Source: Candidatus Gastranaerophilales bacterium (GTDB taxonomy: Bacteria > Cyanobacteriota > Vampirovibrionia > Gastranaerophilales > Gastranaerophilaceae). Taken from it: a stretch of DNA of 37,457 nucleotides. The DNA is taken from the NCBI GenBank assembly GCA_944323035.1, contig CALUQY010000017.1:1-37457 (forward strand), written 5' to 3'. The notes below the pieces were generated by a model. It was given only the letters and a program-made list of their open reading frames with translations, had not been told where the DNA came from and ran no database searches. Positions 8,667 through 37,457 of this stretch are shown in pieces. Numbering within the stretch: the stretch's first letter is position 1; each line of letters starts with the position of its first letter. The position numbers were made by a program, and so were the translations under genes.

Positions 8667-9629
8667 TTATCTTTTTACGCACCAGACATGAACTGAGCTG
8701 CTATTTCTGTCCCATTCTGCTTTAACACCGTTATAAACCCCTACTACATACGCTTTGTCAGAAGAAATCAGATTTGAAGACCAGTAAATTGTATTTATCG
8801 CATCCCACTCAAATAAGTTTTTGTTGTAATAAATTGTTATAAGTTCTTCAACATTTGGCAGTCTATATTCACTATCCTGATTCCGGCAGGCTTTTCCGGC
8901 ATCGGCGTGTTTGGCGGTACCGGCTTCATTTACATTTGGAACAGGCATAACAACCTGACTATCACTTGAATATATTGCGCTCATAATACCAATATCCCGC
9001 CCGACAGTGTTTGGGCCTTTGCTGCCGTTCAAATCAAATACAAAATTTGCACATACCTGTTGCTTAATCATAGTGGCTTCGGCGTACGTATCAGTATAAG
9101 ATACTTCAACATTTGAAGCTGTACAGTCTTTGTTATAAAATACCAGAATGGATTCTCCGTTAGCAGTTTCAAATGCTGCCGCTTTTGTATCAGGAATACT
9201 TATTCCATGCATTGGCGCAATTATACCGGAGTTTAGTTCCCCTAATGTTTTAGGTAAACTTATGATATTGCCCTTTATTGTTGTAATTTTGCTGCTCAAT
9301 CCGCAATCTTCGATTTTAGCAGGCGAACAAATATTATTAATTTTCAGAACTTTACTCAAACCGCTGGTAATAAATGTTTCTGCTGCTGTATCGACTGCCG
9401 GCGCAGAAGATGTTGCCTCTGTTACCGTTCCATATCCGTTGAGGTTTGGCATAAGCGAAATTGCCTGTGACATACGGGCGTACAAAGCTTTTCTCTGTGT
9501 GTTCCATGTCCGCTCGTTGATGTTGCCGGTGAGGCTTGGAAGTGTTATCGCTGCAACTATACCGATTATTGTGAGAGATAACAGAATTTCTGCCATCGTA
9601 AACGCATTTTTTAAAACTCTTAAATCCAT
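8667..9629 (-). CDS. Prepilin-like protein with Lcl/DUF1566-like C-terminus
   Basis: 320 aa. The N-terminus MDLRVLKNAFTMAEILLS is a short-leader class III signal peptide: predicted cleavage before Phe, Glu at +5, then a hydrophobic helix (LLSLTIIGIVAAITLPSL). The C-terminal ~70 residues (CRNQDSEYRLPNVEEL ... YWSSNL ... HVWCVKR) resemble the Lcl_C/DUF1566 domain seen in surface and filament proteins. Two paralogues lie at 19982 and 23947, sharing an almost identical first ~55 mature residues and diverging later. This copy has a normal leader with an AAAGGA ribosome-binding site, its own promoter and a terminator. An operator-like palindrome overlaps its start of transcription. Confidence 0.82.
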   Translation of the reverse strand: MDLRVLKNAFTMAEILLSLTIIGIVAAITLPSLTGNINERTWNTQRKALYARMSQAISLMPNLNGYGTVTEATSSAPAVDTAAETFITSGLSKVLKINNICSPAKIEDCGLSSKITTIKGNIISLPKTLGELNSGIIAPMHGISIPDTKAAAFETANGESILVFYNKDCTASNVEVSYTDTYAEATMIKQQVCANFVFDLNGSKGPNTVGRDIGIMSAIYSSDSQVVMPVPNVNEAGTAKHADAGKACRNQDSEYRLPNVEELITIYYNKNLFEWDAINTIYWSSNLISSDKAYVVGVYNGVKAEWDRNSSSVHVWCVKR

Positions 9630-19277: not shown

Positions 19278-19306
19278 TTGACAACTCTTAAAATATCGTA
19301 CATAAT
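19278..19306 (+). promoter_or_regulatory. Promoter of poly-G leader locus 1
   Basis: TTGACA (19278-19283), 17-base spacer, CATAAT (19301-19306), preceded by TA. The same arrangement, including the bases TACATAATG, occurs before the leaders at 23829 and 37348. Confidence 0.8.
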
Positions 19307-19312
19307 GAAAGA

Positions 19313-19506
19313 GGCAATAAGAGAATAAGGCAAAGAGTCATTATTGTCGAATGGACGATAAAAGTTAATAAGTTAATAGGTTAAAGAGTTAATAAGGAAT
19401 ATGACCGAAATTGAAGAAAATAATATAAAGGTCTTATTGCCCTACTGCCCTAATGACCTATTGCCTTATGATAAAAAGTCAAGTAGGTTGGGCTTGCTAG
19501 CCCAAC
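19313..19506 (+). repeat. Structured 5' leader of poly-G locus 1
   Basis: No gene is credible here. Inverted blocks GGCAATAAG/CTTATTGCC (19313/19433), ATAAGGCAA/TTGCCTTAT (19325/19461) and TCATTA/TAATGA lie on either side of tandem GTTAATA-type units (19366-19395). A perfect hairpin GTTGGGCT-TGCT-AGCCCAAC spans 19487-19506. The same elements recur in the 37.1-37.3 kb locus, so the untranslated region is duplicated together with the promoter. Confidence 0.6.
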
Positions 19507-19530
19507 GCAATAAAAGAAAGGATGGAAAGA

Positions 19531-19596
19531 ATGAAAAAACGAAGTGTAAGCATTTTATCAGGGGGGGGGGGGGCCTCTCTTAACAGGCACTATTGA
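19531..19596 (+). CDS. Poly-G leader peptide 1 (out of frame with prepilin)
   Basis: The ATG at 19531 follows AAAGGATGGAAAGA, a good ribosome-binding site. It reads MKKRSVSILSGGGG and, with the present 13 G, continues ASLNRHY and stops at 19596. A frame shift by one added G (or two lost) would instead continue PLLTGTIDES and stay open for 474 codons to the prepilin stop at 20995. The leader matches those at 23829 and 37348. Whether the short peptide itself has a role is unknown. Confidence 0.55.
   Translation: MKKRSVSILSGGGGASLNRHY
19561..19573 (+). repeat. Poly-G tract, 13 G
   Basis: Uninterrupted run of 13 G inside the leader reading frame at 19531. Such tracts change length by slipped-strand mispairing in other bacteria and switch translation. 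Confidence 0.85.
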
Positions 19597-19680
19597 CGAG
19601 TCGGCCGCTGAGCGGCATCCACAAAGCGACCCGAGTGGGAATTTAACGAAAGAAGTAAGCACGAAGGCCGTAAAGTATCC

Positions 19681-19715
19681 GTCATTGCGAGCGGTCGCAG
19701 ACCGCGCGGCAATCC
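19681..19715 (+). repeat. Dispersed GTCATTGCGAG repeat
   Basis: GTCATTGCGAG ... GGCAATCC with an internal hairpin GCGGTC-GCA-GACCGC (19691-19705). It lies inside the open frame connecting the poly-G leader to the prepilin body and is related to the repeat at 4378. Confidence 0.6.
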
Positions 19716-19981
19716 ATTCAACGTTGGTACTGCGCCTCGCGTTTTCTTGTTCGACTCGCGGAAAACGTGCCTACGTGCTTTCAGCACTCCGCACTCCGCT
19801 CGCTCACGCAAACGCTACCGCTCGCGCTTGCGGTCAAAAGCGTGCCGGCCAAGCCGGTCTTATAACGTCGCGTTCAGTCGCTACAACGTATTGTGGATGT
19901 GCCTCAGGCACGCCGCGTCGTGCGCTCGACTCTACACAAGGCAAGCCTTGTTCCGTGGCTCTGCTCGGCTTGACCTTTACC

Positions 19982-20995
19982 ATGACCGCCCGGCTGAGCC
20001 GGTTCCATAATGGGCTGGTCGGCTTACGGTCAGCGTTCACAATGGCAGAGATATTATTATCCCTGACGATAATTGGTGTGGTTGCGGCGATAACGCTTCC
20101 GTCACTTACGGGAAACATTAACGAACGCACGTGGAACACGCAGAGAAAAGCCCTTTATGCCCGTTTTAGTCAGGCAATTGCATTAATGCCTTCCCTCAAC
20201 GGCTATGGAACCTTACGGGAAAGTACTGATAGTGCGGGCTCAACATCAATAGAAGATACCGCCGCCGAAACCTTTGTTACAAGCGGGCTTTCTAAAGTCC
20301 TTAAAATCAACAATATTTGTGATAATGAGCACCTTGAAGATTGCGGGCTTCCTTCCAGAATTACGACGTTAGATGCAAGTCAAATCTCAACTCCAACAAA
20401 AATGTCTGAACTTAATTCTAAAATGACTTCTGTGAATGTTGCGGATTGGATCAGTTCAGGGGCTTATCTGACTTATGATACCATTGATACAAAGGCTGCA
20501 GCTTTTGAAACCGCGAATGGGGAAAGTATTCTGGTATTTTATAATCCTTCTTGTCAGGCAGATATGCAGGAAACAGGACGATATTATGTGCAAACTAAAC
20601 TTTGCGCGACATTTATTTATGATTTGAACGGAAATAAAGGCCCAAATACGGTGAATAAAGATGTCGGGATTATCAGTGTAATTTATCCGACGGATAGTGT
20701 TGTAGTTGCGCCATATCCGCATGCGCAAAATGCTTCTACAAGTGTTTCCTATGATGATTCAGCCGCGGCTTGTACAGCTCAGGATTCCGAATACCGCGTG
20801 CCAAATAAATATGAATTGATGTCAATGTTTTCTGCGCAAAAGTTATATGGGCTGAGTGCTTCTTCGGGGTATAATACCTCTTCGCTTGCTCAGATTCAGT
20901 ATAGTACGCTTGCATGGCGTATTGCCTTTGTCGCAGGGACTATGGAACCTCATCCCAAAACTCATGGTTATGCACTTCGCTGTGTTAAACGCTAG
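19982..20995 (+). CDS. Prepilin-like protein, body of poly-G locus 1
   Basis: From the ATG at 19982 this is 337 aa: a leader of about 20 residues, then SAFTMAEILLSLTIIGVV, the class III signal with Glu at +5, and an exported domain ending CVKR. It is a close paralogue of the proteins at 8667 and 23947. No ribosome-binding site precedes 19982, and the frame stays open upstream to the poly-G tract (19574) through repeat-derived sequence, so the true product may be a fusion made only when the tract length puts the MKK leader in frame. Compared with the ordinary paralogue at 8667, the original short leader has been replaced by GC-rich repeat sequence. A terminator follows. Confidence 0.7.
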   Translation: MTARLSRFHNGLVGLRSAFTMAEILLSLTIIGVVAAITLPSLTGNINERTWNTQRKALYARFSQAIALMPSLNGYGTLRESTDSAGSTSIEDTAAETFVTSGLSKVLKINNICDNEHLEDCGLPSRITTLDASQISTPTKMSELNSKMTSVNVADWISSGAYLTYDTIDTKAAAFETANGESILVFYNPSCQADMQETGRYYVQTKLCATFIYDLNGNKGPNTVNKDVGIISVIYPTDSVVVAPYPHAQNASTSVSYDDSAAACTAQDSEYRVPNKYELMSMFSAQKLYGLSASSGYNTSSLAQIQYSTLAWRIAFVAGTMEPHPKTHGYALRCVKR

Positions 20996-23715: not shown

Positions 23716-23750
23716 AAAAGGTCAAGTTCTGCACTTGACCTTTTTGTTAA
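23716..23750 (+). terminator. Terminator after PBP1A
   Basis: AAAAAGGTCAAG pairs with CTTGACCTTTTT around TTCTGCA, followed by GTT. Its 3' arm contains the TTGACC used as a -35 box by the next locus. Confidence 0.85.
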
Positions 23751-23763
23751 AATCGTACATAAT
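23735..23763 (+). promoter_or_regulatory. Promoter of poly-G leader locus 2
   Basis: TTGACC (23735-23740), 17-base spacer, CATAAT (23758-23763). Same pattern as locus 1 and 3. The -35 box lies in the descending arm of the PBP1A terminator. Short hairpins (GCCGC/GCGGC, CCGGG/CCCGG) follow in the leader. Confidence 0.75.
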
Positions 23764-23828
23764 GAAGAAGTGCCGCATAGCGGCATCCACAATAAGACCC
23801 GGGTAAATCCCGGAGAAAGGATAGAGAA

Positions 23829-23885
23829 ATGAAAAAACAGAGAAGTGTAAGTATTTGTACGGGGGGGGGGGGGGGGCCTTCTTAG
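23829..23885 (+). CDS. Poly-G leader peptide 2 (out of frame with prepilin)
   Basis: The ATG follows AAAGGATAGAGAA. It reads MKKQRSVSICTGGGGGPS and stops at 23885 with the present 16 G. With one G fewer (or two more) it would enter the frame LLSGCEAP..., which is open to the prepilin stop at 25044. The sequence right after the tract (LLSG in that frame) matches LLTG in loci 1 and 3, suggesting that this is the selected frame. Confidence 0.55.
   Translation: MKKQRSVSICTGGGGGPS
23861..23876 (+). repeat. Poly-G tract, 16 G
   Basis: Longest of five G runs of 12 or more in the window, all on the plus strand. Lies within the second leader reading frame. Confidence 0.85.
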
Positions 23886-23946
23886 CGGATGTGAAGCGCC
23901 GGCGCCGGTTCGCGTGAGCGAAACGGGCAGGGCGCGCAACTGGACG

Positions 23947-25044
23947 ATGCCGCCGTTGCGACTGGAGCGCGAGTGTAAGGAGCACTCTGCCGAACAAAAC
24001 GATTTATTATCGTTTTGTGAGAGGCGAAATTCTGCAACGATTGATAATCGTTGCGTAGAATTTGACAGGCAGGAGAACCAACGTTGCGCATTTACGATGG
24101 CGGAAATATTACTGTCATTGACAATCATTGGCGTGGTTGCTGCGATAACGCTCCCGTCATTGACCGGCAATATCAACGAACGAACATGGAATACGCAAAG
24201 AAAAGCACTTTATGCGCGGTTTTCACAGGCAATTTCCCTTATGCCGGCTTTGAATGGTTATGGAACTTTGACGGAAGATGAGAGCGGAAGTATTACCAAG
24301 GATACCGCCGCCGAAACCTTTGTCACTAACGGACTTGCAAAAGTCCTAAAAATTAATAACATTTGCGACAGTGATCACCTTGCGGATTGCGGCTTCCCTT
24401 CTAAGATTGTTAATTTGGCCGGCAGCAATATTTCACCTATTCCGCAATCATTAGTTAGCTTTAATAATATGTTTAACGGTTCGTATAGCAATCCGGACGG
24501 GCTATATATTTATTCTTATTCACAGGCAGATACAAAAGCTGCTGCATTTGAAACGCAAAATGGAGAGAGTATTTTAACATATTACAATCCGAACTGTGTG
24601 GCAAACTACAATGAAACCGGATTCTTTTATATTCAATCTAAGGTTTGTGCAAATTTTGTGTATGACCTGAATGGGGTAAAAGGGCCTAATACTGTTGGTA
24701 AGGATATAGGGTTTATAACAGTATTTTATCCATCGGATTCTGTCGTTGCCGCACCTTATCCTTCTATCCAGCGTGCTGCAACTGACAGAACATCACAGGC
24801 TGACGCCGGCAGAGCTTGTCTGGAGCAGGATTCAAATACACGTGTTCCTAATATGTATGAATTAGGTGCGATGTTTGTTAATAAAGAATTAATGAAATCC
24901 TCTATTATTGAAGAATTAGGTACAAACGGTGTCTGGTCAAGTTCTCGTTTGTCCGCTAATCGGGGATGGTACCTTAACTGGGAAGCAGGATTCTTTTATA
25001 ATGAAGCTGATTGGACGGCAAATGTCTGGTGTATTCAACGCTAA
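23947..25044 (+). CDS. Prepilin-like protein, body of poly-G locus 2
   Basis: 365 aa from the ATG at 23947 (a GTG at 23914 gives 376). About 48 residues of Arg/Glu/Asn-rich, repeat-derived sequence precede RCAFTMAEILLSLTIIG, the class III signal with Glu at +5. The rest is a paralogue of 8667 and 19982, ending YLNWEAGFFYNE ... VWCIQR, with Lcl/DUF1566-like features (WSSSRLS). No plausible start with a ribosome-binding site lies just before the signal; an AGGAGA at 24071 is followed by a start only in another frame. The frame is open back to the poly-G tract, so expression probably depends on the MKKQRSV leader. Confidence 0.7.
   Translation: MPPLRLERECKEHSAEQNDLLSFCERRNSATIDNRCVEFDRQENQRCAFTMAEILLSLTIIGVVAAITLPSLTGNINERTWNTQRKALYARFSQAISLMPALNGYGTLTEDESGSITKDTAAETFVTNGLAKVLKINNICDSDHLADCGFPSKIVNLAGSNISPIPQSLVSFNNMFNGSYSNPDGLYIYSYSQADTKAAAFETQNGESILTYYNPNCVANYNETGFFYIQSKVCANFVYDLNGVKGPNTVGKDIGFITVFYPSDSVVAAPYPSIQRAATDRTSQADAGRACLEQDSNTRVPNMYELGAMFVNKELMKSSIIEELGTNGVWSSSRLSANRGWYLNWEAGFFYNEADWTANVWCIQR
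23970..24075 (+). repeat. Hairpin repeat module within prepilin locus 2
   Basis: GCACTCTGCCGA, a hairpin ACAAAACGAT/ATCGTTTTGT (23994-24018), then GAGAGG is the same outer arrangement as in the repeats at 8484 and 36089, with a different stem and loop. A second hairpin GCAACGATT/AATCGTTGC follows near 24032-24052. The module lies inside the reading frame of the prepilin. Confidence 0.55.
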
Positions 25045-25076: not shown

Positions 25077-27602
25077 TTATTCTTGTTCCGTTGTTTCGCT
25101 TACTCCGGCGGTTGTACTCGCTTTCGCTCTGCTTTTACGCTTTGGTGCTTTCTCAAAAGCAATTTTATCATCCACAAGCGTAATCTTTATTGTATCACCC
25201 GGTGCATATTTGCCGGAGAGAATTTCTTCCGCAAGCATATCTTCTATCTTGCGTTGTATTAACCTTCTTAGCGGTCTTGCACCGTAAGCTTCCGAATATC
25301 CGTCTTTTGCAAGGTAATCTTTAACTTCATCGGTTACTTCAACAGAAAGCTCTCTTTCTGCAAGGCGTTTAAACAGGTCTTTTAGCATCAAATCAACAAT
25401 CTGTCTGATTTCTTCTTTAGAAAGATGTGCAAAGACAATTGTTTCGTCAATACGGTTCAAGAATTCCGGTCTGAACGCTTTTTTCATCTCTTCGGTAACG
25501 GTTTCTTTGAGTTTTTCGTACTTATCCTTTGATTCATCAGAAGATGTTGAAAAACCGAGTCTTGATGTCGTTGTAATCATACTTGCCCCAACGTTTGAGG
25601 TCATAATGATTACGGTATTTTTGAAGTTGATATAGCGTCCTTTTGCATCAGTCAGACGTCCGTCATCAAGGATTTGGAGCATGATGTTGAATACATCAGG
25701 GTGTGCTTTTTCAATTTCATCGAAAAGGATTACGGAATAAGGTTTTTTACGAACCAATTCTGTTAAATGTCCGCCGTCATCGTAACCAACGTAGCCCGGA
25801 GGGGAGCCGATAAGTTTTGCGGTGGAATGTTTTTCCATAAATTCTGACATATCAACACGAATCATGTTGTCTTCTGAACCAAAAATGGCTTCTGCAAGTG
25901 CTTTTGCAAGTTCTGTTTTACCAACACCTGTAGGTCCGCAGAAGATAAAGCTTCCGATTGGTCTATTCGGGCTTTTTAAGCCGACGCGTGCTCTGCGGAT
26001 TGCTTTTGAAATCGCAACGACGGCGTCGTTTTGGCCGATAACTCTTGCGTGAAGCGTTTTTTCAAGGTTAAGAAGTCTTTCGCTTTCGCCTTCTGTAAGT
26101 TTGGTTACCGGAACGCCTGTCATTGTAGCGATAACAGAGGCAACATCTTCTTCTGTTACGGTTGGTTTATTTGCTTCGTGTTCCTCTTTATATTGTTGTG
26201 CCATTTCGCGAATTCGTTCTTTCATATCAGCTTCTTCATCGCGCAGCTGGGAAGCTTTTTCAAATTCCTGATTGCGAATAGCGTTTTCTTTTTCTTTAAT
26301 AAGTTCTTTTAATTCTTTTTCAAGTTCTTTGCCTTCCGGTGAAAGCGTTGAAACTTTAAGACGAACTTTAGAACTTGCTTCATCAATTACGTCGATTGCT
26401 TTATCCGGCAGAAATCTGTCGGTGATATATTTGCTTGAAAGTTTAACCGCAGCTTCAATCGCCGCATCTGAAATAATCAGATTGTGGTGTTCTTCGTATT
26501 TTGGTTTCAAGCCTTTAATAATTTCGATTGATTCAGCTTCGGACGGCTCTTCAATCATAACGGTTTGGAAGCGGCGTTCAAGAGCGGAATCTTTTTCAAC
26601 GTATTTTCTGTATTCATCGAGAGTTGTCGCACCGATAACCTGAATTTCGCCTCTGGAAAGAGCAGGTTTCAGAATATTTGCGGCATCAATCGCACCTTCT
26701 GCGGCGCCTGCGCCGATGAGGGTGTGCATTTCGTCAATAACAAGAATAATGTTTCCGGCCTGACGAATTTCGTCCATAATTTTTTTAAGTCTTTCTTCAA
26801 ATTCACCGCGGTATTTTGTACCTGCAACGAGCAGCCCCATATCGAGCTGGATAACTTTTTTGCCGTCTAGAATGTCCGGAACTTCGGAGTTAACAATTCT
26901 GGTTGCAAGACCTTCTGCAACGGCAGTTTTACCGACACCCGGTTCACCGATAAGAACAGGGTTGTTTTTAGTTCTTCTCGCAAGAATTTGGATAACACGT
27001 TCAATTTCTTTTTCTCTGCCTACAACCGGATCGAGTCTTAATTCCTGAGCGGCAAGAGTTAAGTCGCGTCCGAATTCATCAAGACTAGGAGTTTTTGCTT
27101 TGCTTGTAGAAGAGCTTGATGAAGAACTTGACGTTGATGTGGAAGAAGAACCGGCAGTTGTGGTTTTGGTTTCTCCCAGCATTTTAATTACGTTAGTACG
27201 GACTTTGTTCAAATCAACGTTGAGGTTTTCAAGAACTCTTGCGGCTACGCCTTCGCCTTCTCTGATTAAACCGAGAAGCAGGTGCTCTGTACCGATATAG
27301 TTGTGACCGAGTTGTCTTGCCTCATCCCATGAAAGTTCAAGAACTCTTTTCGCTCTTGGCGTAAACGGGATTTCTACCGCAACGAAGCCTGAACCTCTGC
27401 CGATAATTTTTTCGACTTCCGCTCTGGCATCTTTGAGGTTAACCCCCATTGATTTGAGTGCTTTTGCCGCGACTCCGGTGCCTTCACCGATTAAGCCTAA
27501 AAGAACCTGTTCTGTGCCGACAAAGTTGTGGCCAAGACGACGGGCTTCTTCCTGGGCAAGCATTATAACTTTTATTGCTTTCTCCGTAAAACGTTCAAAC
27601 AT
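25077..27602 (-). CDS. clpC: ATP-dependent chaperone ClpC
   Basis: 841 aa. Two Clp N-terminal repeats (1-65 and ~80-140; [18 protein letters not shown] and [18 protein letters not shown]), a Ser/Thr-rich linker (~147-168), first AAA+ domain with GEPGVGKT at 219-226, a coiled UVR-containing middle domain (~430-470, [14 protein letters not shown]), and second AAA+ domain with GPTGVGKT at 556-563. It unfolds substrates for ClpP. The sequence is of the cyanobacterial/plastid ClpC type. GGAG precedes the ATG and a good promoter lies upstream. ClpP is not in the window. Confidence 0.97.
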
Positions 27603-27738: not shown

Positions 27739-27750
27739 GGGGGGGGGGGG
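27739..27750 (+). repeat. Poly-G tract, 12 G, intergenic
   Basis: Run of 12 G preceded by eight A and followed by CTTTTT, between clpC and the terminator of the gene at 27837. I see no reading frame through it. Confidence 0.8.
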
Positions 27751-27836: not shown

Positions 27837-29063
27837 CTAATTTTCTCCGTAGCTATTCGGATGTAATTCATCGAGGAATCTTTGAGAATTAATAAATTCA
27901 AGATCTTCTATTTTTTGTTCCCAGGATTGACCTTCAGCCAGCCCGTTGCGTTCTTTGACGTGTCCGTGTTCATCTCTGTAAAGATAACCCTGTTGGGTGT
28001 ATTGTCCGTCTGCACCCATAACATATTTACGAACACAGTTATTTGCTTCATCCGGTACAAAAATTATTTTTTGTGCATTGAAGGTATCCCAGTCACCGGC
28101 ATTCATTTTTGAGTATTCTGATTGTTCTTTACCTGCAAACGGTGAAACGATGTCACAGATAATTGCTTCCTGACCGTTGAAGGTTGTTTTGCCGATTTTC
28201 ATTTGTTTGACATAAGTCGTTGGATTTTTATCGTTTTCGTAATCAACTACGTGCAGCGCATAAGCCTGTTGCTTTTCGCTGGTATTTTGTGCGTCAAATC
28301 TGGCTTCGAGTGCGTGTTGCTCAAACATTTTAGCGCCCTTCATCTGTACTGTTGTCCCATTTGTATTTTCACCCGGTGTCAGAATATCAGTGATTCTATC
28401 CAGAACCGGTTCCGGTTCTCCCGTATATTCAGGGTTTGTCGGGACTTCAATTGTTTCGCCCGGAACTTCAATATATACAGGAACTTCTTTGATAATTTCT
28501 TTTTCAACGATTTTTTCGACAATAACCTCTACCGGTACTTCGACAATTACTTCTTTTTCTACAACCTTTTCAACAATCTTTTCAACAACGACTTCGACCG
28601 GTACTTCCTTGATGACTTCGACTTCCTTGATGACTTCTTTAATGACTTCAACCGGAACTTCGACTTCAACAATTTTTTCAACTTCTTTTATGACTTCAAC
28701 GATTTTTTCGACAGGCACCTCTTTTACGACTTCAACTTCGACAATTTTTTCAGGAATGTCACGTGACTCAAGGTTCATTTCAACGGTGTGTTTACCCGCT
28801 AACTCGTTATAATAATCATCTTCATTGCAGCTTGTTAGTCCCAGTGCTGCGGCGCCTACGGCTGTACCGGCTGCTGCCTTTTTAATATTCGGATTTGATA
28901 CTGCCTGTTGTAATTTAGGAGCAATATTAAATGAAAATGCCGGTTTTAAATTTTTTAATGTTTTTAAGCCTTTACCTTTTGTTGCAAGTGCAAGTATTCC
29001 CAAACCCGCAGCAGTCGCCACTGCACCAATAGTAATTGCTTCAGAATTCATTCCATTTCCCAT
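27837..29063 (-). CDS. Repeat-containing, probably exported protein
   Basis: 408 aa, function unknown. The N-terminal 80 residues contain small-residue hydrophobic stretches: IGAVATAAGLGILALA (~12-27) and AAAGTAVGAAALGLTSC (~63-79), the latter ending like a lipobox (LGLTSC) but far from the start. Residues ~105-215 are a long array of short Glu/Val/Lys/Ile units (KEVPVEKIVEV, VEVIKEV), expected to form an extended rod. A globular domain follows (~230-400; MKIGKTTFNGQEAIICDIV, YLYRDEHGHVKERNG). AGGGGA precedes the ATG. A 13-base poly-C (minus strand) lies ~50 bases upstream, in or near its promoter. Confidence 0.75.
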   Translation of the reverse strand: MGNGMNSEAITIGAVATAAGLGILALATKGKGLKTLKNLKPAFSFNIAPKLQQAVSNPNIKKAAAGTAVGAAALGLTSCNEDDYYNELAGKHTVEMNLESRDIPEKIVEVEVVKEVPVEKIVEVIKEVEKIVEVEVPVEVIKEVIKEVEVIKEVPVEVVVEKIVEKVVEKEVIVEVPVEVIVEKIVEKEIIKEVPVYIEVPGETIEVPTNPEYTGEPEPVLDRITDILTPGENTNGTTVQMKGAKMFEQHALEARFDAQNTSEKQQAYALHVVDYENDKNPTTYVKQMKIGKTTFNGQEAIICDIVSPFAGKEQSEYSKMNAGDWDTFNAQKIIFVPDEANNCVRKYVMGADGQYTQQGYLYRDEHGHVKERNGLAEGQSWEQKIEDLEFINSQRFLDELHPNSYGEN

Positions 29064-29110: not shown

Positions 29111-29123
29111 GGGGGGGGGGGGG
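29111..29123 (+). repeat. Poly-G tract, 13 G, upstream of the repeat-protein gene
   Basis: 13 G on the plus strand; poly-C in the promoter region of the minus-strand gene at 27837. The sequence after it, TTAACAGGC (29129-29137), also follows the tracts at 19561 and 37381 (CTTAACAGGC), so this site is related to the leader loci. Confidence 0.8.
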
Positions 29124-37092: not shown

Positions 37093-37121
37093 TTGACAAG
37101 CTCCAAAACATGGTACATAAT
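37093..37121 (+). promoter_or_regulatory. Promoter of poly-G leader locus 3
   Basis: TTGACA (37093-37098), a 17-base spacer, CATAAT (37116-37121) preceded by TA. Same as in locus 1 and 2; the downstream GGAAGAGGCAATAAGAGAA also matches locus 1. Confidence 0.8.
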
Positions 37122-37178
37122 GGAAGAGGCAATAAGAGAATAAGGCAATAAGTCGTTATGGCCAAATGGACAAGAAAA

Positions 37179-37323
37179 GTTAATAGGTTAATCAGTTAAT
37201 AAGTTAATAAGGAATATGACCGAATGGAAGAAAAATGAACCCGGGTAACAATTTATAACCCTAATTAACTTATTAACTGATTAACTCATTAACAAGAATG
37301 TAGGTTGGGCTTTCCAGCCCAAC
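37179..37323 (+). repeat. Long inverted repeat in the 5' leader of locus 3
   Basis: The segment 37179-37212 (tandem GTTAAT units) is complementary to 37259-37293 with three mismatches over about 34 positions, leaving a ~46-base loop. A perfect hairpin GTTGGGCT-TTCC-AGCCCAAC follows at 37304-37323. Locus 1 has the same elements with a shorter main stem. Confidence 0.75.
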
Positions 37324-37347
37324 GGAACAAAAAGAAAGGATGGAAAA

Positions 37348-37457
37348 ATGAAAAAACAGAGAAGTGTAATTACTTGCACAGGGGGGGGGGGGCCTCTCTT
37401 AACAGGCACTATTGAGGAGTCGCAAGCCTATAATTGTCATTCTGAACAGCGCGAGCG
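37348..37457 (+). CDS. Poly-G leader gene 3, in-frame state (partial)
   Basis: The ATG follows AAAGGATGGAAAA. It reads MKKQRSVITCTGGGGPLL and continues TGTIEESQAYNCHSEQRE to the window end without a stop. With 12 G here the leader is in the PLLTG frame, the one that leads to prepilin bodies in the two other loci, so this copy may be switched on. The last part is encoded by a dispersed TGTCATTCTGAAC repeat. Whether a prepilin follows lies beyond the window. Confidence 0.65.
   Translation, partial: MKKQRSVITCTGGGGPLLTGTIEESQAYNCHSEQRE
37381..37392 (+). repeat. Poly-G tract, 12 G
   Basis: Run of 12 G inside the leader reading frame at 37348, followed by CCTCTCTTAACAGGCAC as in locus 1. Confidence 0.85.

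Follow-up and report, generated by a model that had tools for sequence, protein, structure and literature searches.

A large family of putatively phase-variable, lectin-ended type IV pilin-like genes with poly-G tracts in a Gastranaerophilus-group genome

The poly-G loci analysed here are very probably members of one extensive family of type IV pilin-like genes subject to phase variation, and their sequences predict an ON/OFF pilin repertoire of very large size. The window, that is, the whole 37,457-nt stretch of DNA under study, is the entire contig C17 of a Gastranaerophilus-group (Melainabacteria) genome of 1.94 Mb, assembled in 41 contigs and 99.9% complete. Each unit has its own sigma-70-type promoter, a Shine-Dalgarno (SD) region and a short start peptide, with the poly-G tract lying within the prepilin leader. 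In the model that we propose, slipped-strand mispairing in living cells would alter the tract by one G, placing the pilin in or out of frame. When in frame, ribosomes would traverse a leader whose sequence is irrelevant, prepilin peptidase would cleave at the A/G^FTMAE site and the pilin would be displayed on the surface with a variable C-type-lectin-like end. When out of frame, translation would terminate once about 16-35 codons had been read. The pilins displayed by any one cell would then be a random selection from some 75-90, and recombination between loci, which exchanges 5′ units and pilin bodies, would renew the repertoire. A retroelement would diversify one member, L073 on contig C16, whose variants may have reached other copies. 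A previous, sequence-only reading of the window had missed what the unit would be for, namely to switch the frame of a type IV pilin-like protein.

That reading had described three poly-G loci starting at 19278, 23735 and 37093, all on the forward strand, and their promoters, AAAGGAT sites, starts and tracts of 13, 16 and 12 G lie where it placed them. In locus 1, the promoter (19278-19306) consists of TTGACA (19278-19283)-N17-CATAAT (19301-19306) and is followed by a 5′ leader of dispersed hairpin repeats (19307-19530) with AAAGGAT at its end (19517-19523), the start codons MKKRSVSILS (19531-19560) and a G13 tract (19561-19573); G12 is needed for the pilin frame, so the locus is OFF in the assembly. 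Downstream come a prepilin leader region made of shared repeats, in which the pilin frame alone is stop-free (19574-20035), and a mature pilin of 319 aa beginning with FTMAEILLSLT (20036-20995). Locus 2 has the promoter TTGACC (23735-23740)-N17-CATAAT (23758-23763; whole promoter 23735-23763), a short 5′ leader with two hairpins (23764-23828) and AAAGGAT at 23816-23822, the start codons MKKQRSVSIC (23829-23860), a G16 tract (23861-23876) that is OFF in the assembly because G15 is needed, leader repeats without stops in the pilin frame (23877-24090) and a mature pilin of 317 aa (24091-25044). Locus 3 comprises the promoter TTGACA (37093-37098)-N17-CATAAT (37116-37121; 37093-37121 overall), a 5′ leader with hairpins (37122-37347) and AAAGGAT at 37335-37341, the start codons MKKQRSVITCT (37348-37380) and a G12 tract (37381-37392), the in-frame length for its head/tail type; the contig ends 65 nt after the tract, leaving only the beginning of the leader repeats (37393-37457). 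The window also encodes, on the reverse strand, a pilin paralogue (8667-9629) that has no poly-G and an ordinary prepilin leader of 9 aa (MDLRVLKNA^FTMAE). It scores above the TIGR02532 cut-off (20.0 vs 16.3) and is the non-switching form. Two further tracts were seen in the window. The poly-G at 29111-29123 is followed by ATTGCTTAACAGGCT, a motif present at three genome sites (also L068 and L090), and lies upstream of a 408-aa gene (27837-29063, reverse strand) with many EVIKEVPVE-like repeats and no Pfam match. A G12 at 27739-27750 is intergenic, between a clpC-like gene (25077-27602, reverse strand) and the 408-aa gene, outside any cassette.

A family of three members, as first proposed, proved to be an undercount. 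The genome contains 87 tracts of at least 9 G (86 followed by another base and one ending a contig), and 77 of them carry the start unit, with an ATG about 30 nt upstream, a recognisable SD in nearly all and start peptides matching MK(K/N)(R/Q)x(S/N)V or MKNLEAENP. The unit layout is TTGACN-N17-CATAAT, AAAGGAT, a short MK(K/N)xR start and 10-16 G, with the promoter arrangement found in 62 of the 75 loci having enough upstream sequence. Chance does not account for these loci: the window holds 31 G8 words where 0.34 are expected, and the cassette pattern gives 64 matches in this genome whereas its reversed control gives 0 in every genome searched. The further copies that the sequence-only reading had proposed to look for also occur in related genomes, six of the seven in the genus having 25-64 units each by pattern search; these and the other genome-wide statements are based on pattern and protein searches and on individually retrieved stretches. 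Pilin N-termini number 99-125 in those six genomes and 18 in the seventh (G002), which has no unit and lends itself to comparison when asking whether the switch was gained or lost. The cassette pattern is rare outside the genus. Homopolymer tracts as a family-wide trait were rejected, the pattern occurring in 21 of 383 family genomes and 9 of 41 genera, mostly with 1-2 matches. Another genus of the family includes a genome (G047, which may be identical to L135, Cyanobacteria bacterium SIG30) with 16 poly-G starts bearing a different head (MNRFNL...CGGGG-like). Spread to Fusobacteria was discarded since the record "Fusobacterium sp. NALB_7963_5" (JAMPIJ01 contigs, with L128, L130, L134 and others) is the genus genome G003, with the same pilins. 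It is thus a Gastranaerophilus-group genome, and the public label looks wrong.

The 5′ leader varies between copies. Its length goes from 24 nt to over 300 nt across copies, it is nearly absent in several, and short (24-37 nt) and long (>200 nt) 5′-UTRs have both ends in common with hairpin repeats in between, one of which is also found outside cassettes. The suggestion that loci 1 and 3 share structured leaders holds to the extent that these two leaders show relatedness and a stronger fold than shuffled sequences (z -3.5 and -6.3); locus 2 has two different hairpins (z -4.3). These leaders are interchangeable hairpin repeats and not a conserved part of the unit, and a conserved structured leader or riboswitch was dismissed on the grounds of this length range and of swappable repeats, some found elsewhere in the genome.

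What frame does each locus need? Every locus was translated with its tract at n-1, n and n+1 G. Among loci with an uncut gene, 57 are fully open in exactly one register and three more contain the pilin in a broken frame (L018, L044 and L075). The open frame runs through a leader of 24-268 aa into FTMAEILLSLTIIGVVAAITLPSLTGNINERTWNTQRKALYARFSQAI and then about 270 residues more. The putative prepilin-peptidase site A/G^FTMAE is invariant (58/58), the residue preceding F being always A or G, which is the rule for type IV prepilin peptidase sites. Both a prepilin cleavage site and a hydrophobic N-terminal helix are present, as expected for type IV pilin-like proteins, and the genome has a peptidase A24 gene (PF01478 above cut-off, at G000:C6:41899). 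Along 5512 leader codons, the pilin frame has 0 stops compared with 289 and 321 in the other two frames, a zero that is partly by construction because the open frame was picked as the longest. Fairer versions of this count are that 0 of 49 leaders of at least 150 nt are open in another frame and that 3 of 60 loci have no open register.

Openness is the only property kept in these leaders. Words of 18 nt common to another leader cover 81% of leader nucleotides, 35 of the 426 common 18-mers occur in two or more reading frames, and 37 leaders have inverted pieces in common; prepilin leaders are thus tolerant sinks for repeats. Rickettsia palindromic elements are small repeats tolerated in frame within proteins, whereas the repeats described here accumulate in a presumably removed leader, in several frames and both orientations. 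Leaders of up to 268 aa far exceed known prepilin leaders, which counts against our preferred explanation. Copies in sister species include some whose leader is short (18-23 aa) and encloses the tract, an indication that leaders in the window species lengthened only later. In 13 leaders (for example window 19970-20040), FTM(A/T)ARLSR immediately precedes the true FTMAE, as would result if insertion of a small repeat had duplicated the cleavage site. Tracts of G10-G13 were also seen within prepilin leaders of unrelated genomes (L156, L159, L198 and L201, from Bacilli MAGs, a Planctomycetaceae MAG and a goat-gut MAG), and poly-G in the prepilin leader may have arisen several times.

Tract length sets the frame, with one open register per locus, and it varies between the same flanks. 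Identical start units are seen with 12 or 13 G, in and out of frame, and syntenic loci of the sister genome G004 differ from ours, L015/L240 having G13 in frame vs G14 out and L036/L239 having 13 vs 14 G. Of 58 loci in the assembly, 12 have the pilin in frame; at 45 the tract exceeds the required length by one G, and at one it falls short by one. This bias acts on frame, not on tract length: at 13 G, A-type heads are out and C-type heads are in (30:0 vs 0:4, p 2e-5). Over four genomes, 81 out-of-frame loci have one extra G and four are one short. The excess of +1 loci counts against the explanation that we favour, as free slippage should populate both states. Deletion-biased slippage of long G tracts has been reported for Campylobacter, as cited in PMC4085013, and under a bias of this kind +1 would be the OFF state from which the commonest event restores ON.

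That 46 of 58 loci are out of frame, that modules clearly move between loci and that some copies are broken might also be expected of a silent archive, in which most copies would be permanently out of frame and would merely donate 5′ units or lectin ends to a few expressed pilins, like Neisseria pilS. However, these copies differ from pilS in retaining a promoter and an SD together with a start and a single open register, none of which an archive needs, and identical heads occur both in and out of frame, so that we regard an archive as unlikely. The dominance of the +1 register whatever the length (13 in A-type heads, 14 in C-type, 12 in MKNLEAENP-type) could alternatively mean that one extra G is the normal state and that polymerase or ribosome slippage gives a low steady level of every pilin. 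We consider such correction at the RNA level quite unlikely, given that around one fifth of the loci are in frame as DNA, that syntenic loci differ in tract length and that the deletion bias cited in PMC4085013 fits the +1 excess as well. It is very unlikely that the tract lengths are assembly errors and the genes simply expressed. These are MAG assemblies whose contigs often stop at tracts, and in-frame loci are commoner in the assemblies G001 and G003 (8/16 vs 22/107, p 0.02), so assembled lengths of 12-16 G may be imperfect and technique may matter. But the other poly-G genes of the same assembly with 13-14 G are in frame in 5 of 5 cases vs 12 of 58 pilins (p 9e-4), which makes systematic over-calling unlikely, and tracts of 13 G leave one head type out of frame and another in. 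A loss of mismatch repair was rejected as the reason for tracts this long, since every one of the seven genus genomes has MutL; there is thus no sign of a mutator state, a point that weighs against our preferred explanation. Besides the pilins, three adjoining AlgX/SGNH acetyltransferase-like genes (L031, L032 and L033; G000:C1:39307, 42178 and 43993) have in-frame G13-G14 tracts and probably represent phase-variable acetylation of a surface polysaccharide.

Turning back to the pilin family, its copies exchange modules. Conservation is high in the promoter (0.78), SD (0.77) and pilin N-terminus (0.79), and falls to shuffled level in both outer flanks (0.40 vs 0.37 and 0.38 vs 0.37). The start codons are conserved in DNA (0.68 vs 0.42 shuffled), one of the outcomes on which the idea of a duplicated control unit had been made to depend. 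Loci with similar 5′ units do not tend to have similar C-termini (Mantel r = 0.01). L021 and L024 are 99.5% identical over 436 bp that reach from the promoter into the leader, beyond which identity drops to about 84%; L015 and L035 are 95% identical from the cleavage site through the stop codon with little shared upstream; and L047 and L124, from two species, keep flanks and pilin (96%) with a different start unit and leaders of 117 vs 20 aa. From these comparisons, the 5′ unit recombines independently of the pilin, most simply by gene conversion. The control unit is therefore repeated and exchanged as a cassette, as the sequence-only reading had supposed, but its description as mobile finds no counterpart in the family, for which neither shared ends in the flanks nor a linked mobility gene was found. 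A self-mobile cassette that transposes from promoter to tract and captures genes would account for near-identical 5′ units at unrelated sites, and it is highly improbable considering this lack of mobility marks, that copies followed by an intact gene control members of the same pilin family, and that the swaps between conserved flanks resemble gene conversion.

Variability within the pilin rises from 0.01 bits (residues 1-30) to 2.6 bits (residues 276-319). The mature protein has about 315 aa, with a predicted C-type-lectin-like domain at its C-terminal end through which it would bind ligands. The model of the locus 1 pilin (mean pLDDT 89, pTM 0.85) places at residues 206-319 a fold that matches the Legionella Lcl C-terminal domain (8q4e) over 92 residues (Z 10.4, rmsd 1.6, 20% identity, Foldseek E 5e-4), the next matches being a Bdellovibrio domain and C-type lectin folds. 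As modelled, the C-terminal fold is the same as that of the Lcl domain. Pfam Lcl_C (PF07603) was detected in 29 of 49 members; in locus 1 it lies below the gathering cut-off (E 3e-5, 24.6 vs 34.9 bits), and for this reason we term that domain Lcl_C-like only.

In the same genome, one member adjoins what its sequence identifies as a diversity-generating retroelement. The region G000:C16:7950-11358 (L289, L290) contains, downstream of cassette L073, the only reverse transcriptase found (C16:7950-9224, reverse strand; RVT_1 E 1e-16), a bAvd gene (C16:9620-9988; bAvd E 1e-11) and a template repeat of 138 bp (C16:9346-9209), together with a variable repeat that is the 3′ end of the L073 pilin (C16:11358-11221). 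Variable and template repeats match at 92%, and 9 of their 11 differences fall at template adenines (p 1e-4), so that reverse transcriptase, Avd and adenine-directed changes, as in such retroelements, come together at L073. The template has ten AAY (Asn) codons, and in 50 other pilins the columns aligned to them have an entropy of 3.59 vs 2.43 bits, an excess reached by 0 of 20000 permutations. The template matches L073 alone among all retrieved loci; no template repeat was found for the window pilins, nor one for other pilins near the sole reverse transcriptase. Either L073 variants were copied elsewhere, or both patterns follow ligand-facing positions of the fold. We tentatively envisage, as a possibility somewhat short of even, a three-layer system: the retroelement would write lectin ends at one locus, recombination would spread ends and 5′ units over 75-90 loci as an expressed library, and the tracts would select what is displayed, with one extra G as the default OFF state and one deletion leading to ON.

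How does this family relate to known systems? Phase-variable poly-G genes, opa- or vlhA-like families and DUF1566 retroelement targets are already known (PMC5953494, PMC6258824, PMC6642488). In Neisseria (pilC, lgtA) and Campylobacter, coding G tracts of 9-20 switch the frame of surface genes, pilC being a pilus gene (PMC5953494), and the tracts described here likewise lie inside coding sequence; theirs, however, are mostly in single- or few-copy unrelated genes, with about 15-19 tracts per genome, whereas here one family has 77. Neisseria opa genes are similarly dispersed, recombining adhesin genes with their own repeat near the coding 5′ end (PMC5953494), but they have up to 11-12 copies, a pentamer repeat and outer-membrane proteins, not pilins. 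Mycoplasma gallisepticum vlhA also comprises tens of paralogous adhesins with their own repeat and conserved repeat flanks (PMC6258824), but has a GAA promoter repeat, transcriptional control and clustered lipoprotein genes. DUF1566 is the commonest target domain of retroelements, pilin-like targets having been noted (PMC6642488). Such DUF1566/Lcl_C targets share with our pilins the lectin-fold C-terminus and with L073 the adenine-directed variation; here, in contrast, L073 alone has an adjoining template and reverse transcriptase, other cassettes having none nearby, and no phase switch is mentioned for those targets (PMC6642488). Lcl itself, whose C-terminal domain is the closest solved fold, is a collagen-like trimeric adhesin and not a pilin. 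In the open-access literature we found no prior description of a single pilin family on this scale whose prepilin leaders carry the tract, whose 5′ units are swapped and one of whose members is linked to a retroelement.

Most known examples of phase variation and antigenic repertoires come from pathogens. Here, in a non-photosynthetic cyanobacterial relative whose genomes come from animal guts, around 5% of the genome consists of lectin-ended pilin genes, most of them predicted to be switchable. The family would provide a natural setting for the joint action of homopolymer switching, modular recombination and retroelement mutagenesis on a single set of related genes, and makes it testable whether a commensal uses such a repertoire for host binding, phage evasion or immune evasion.
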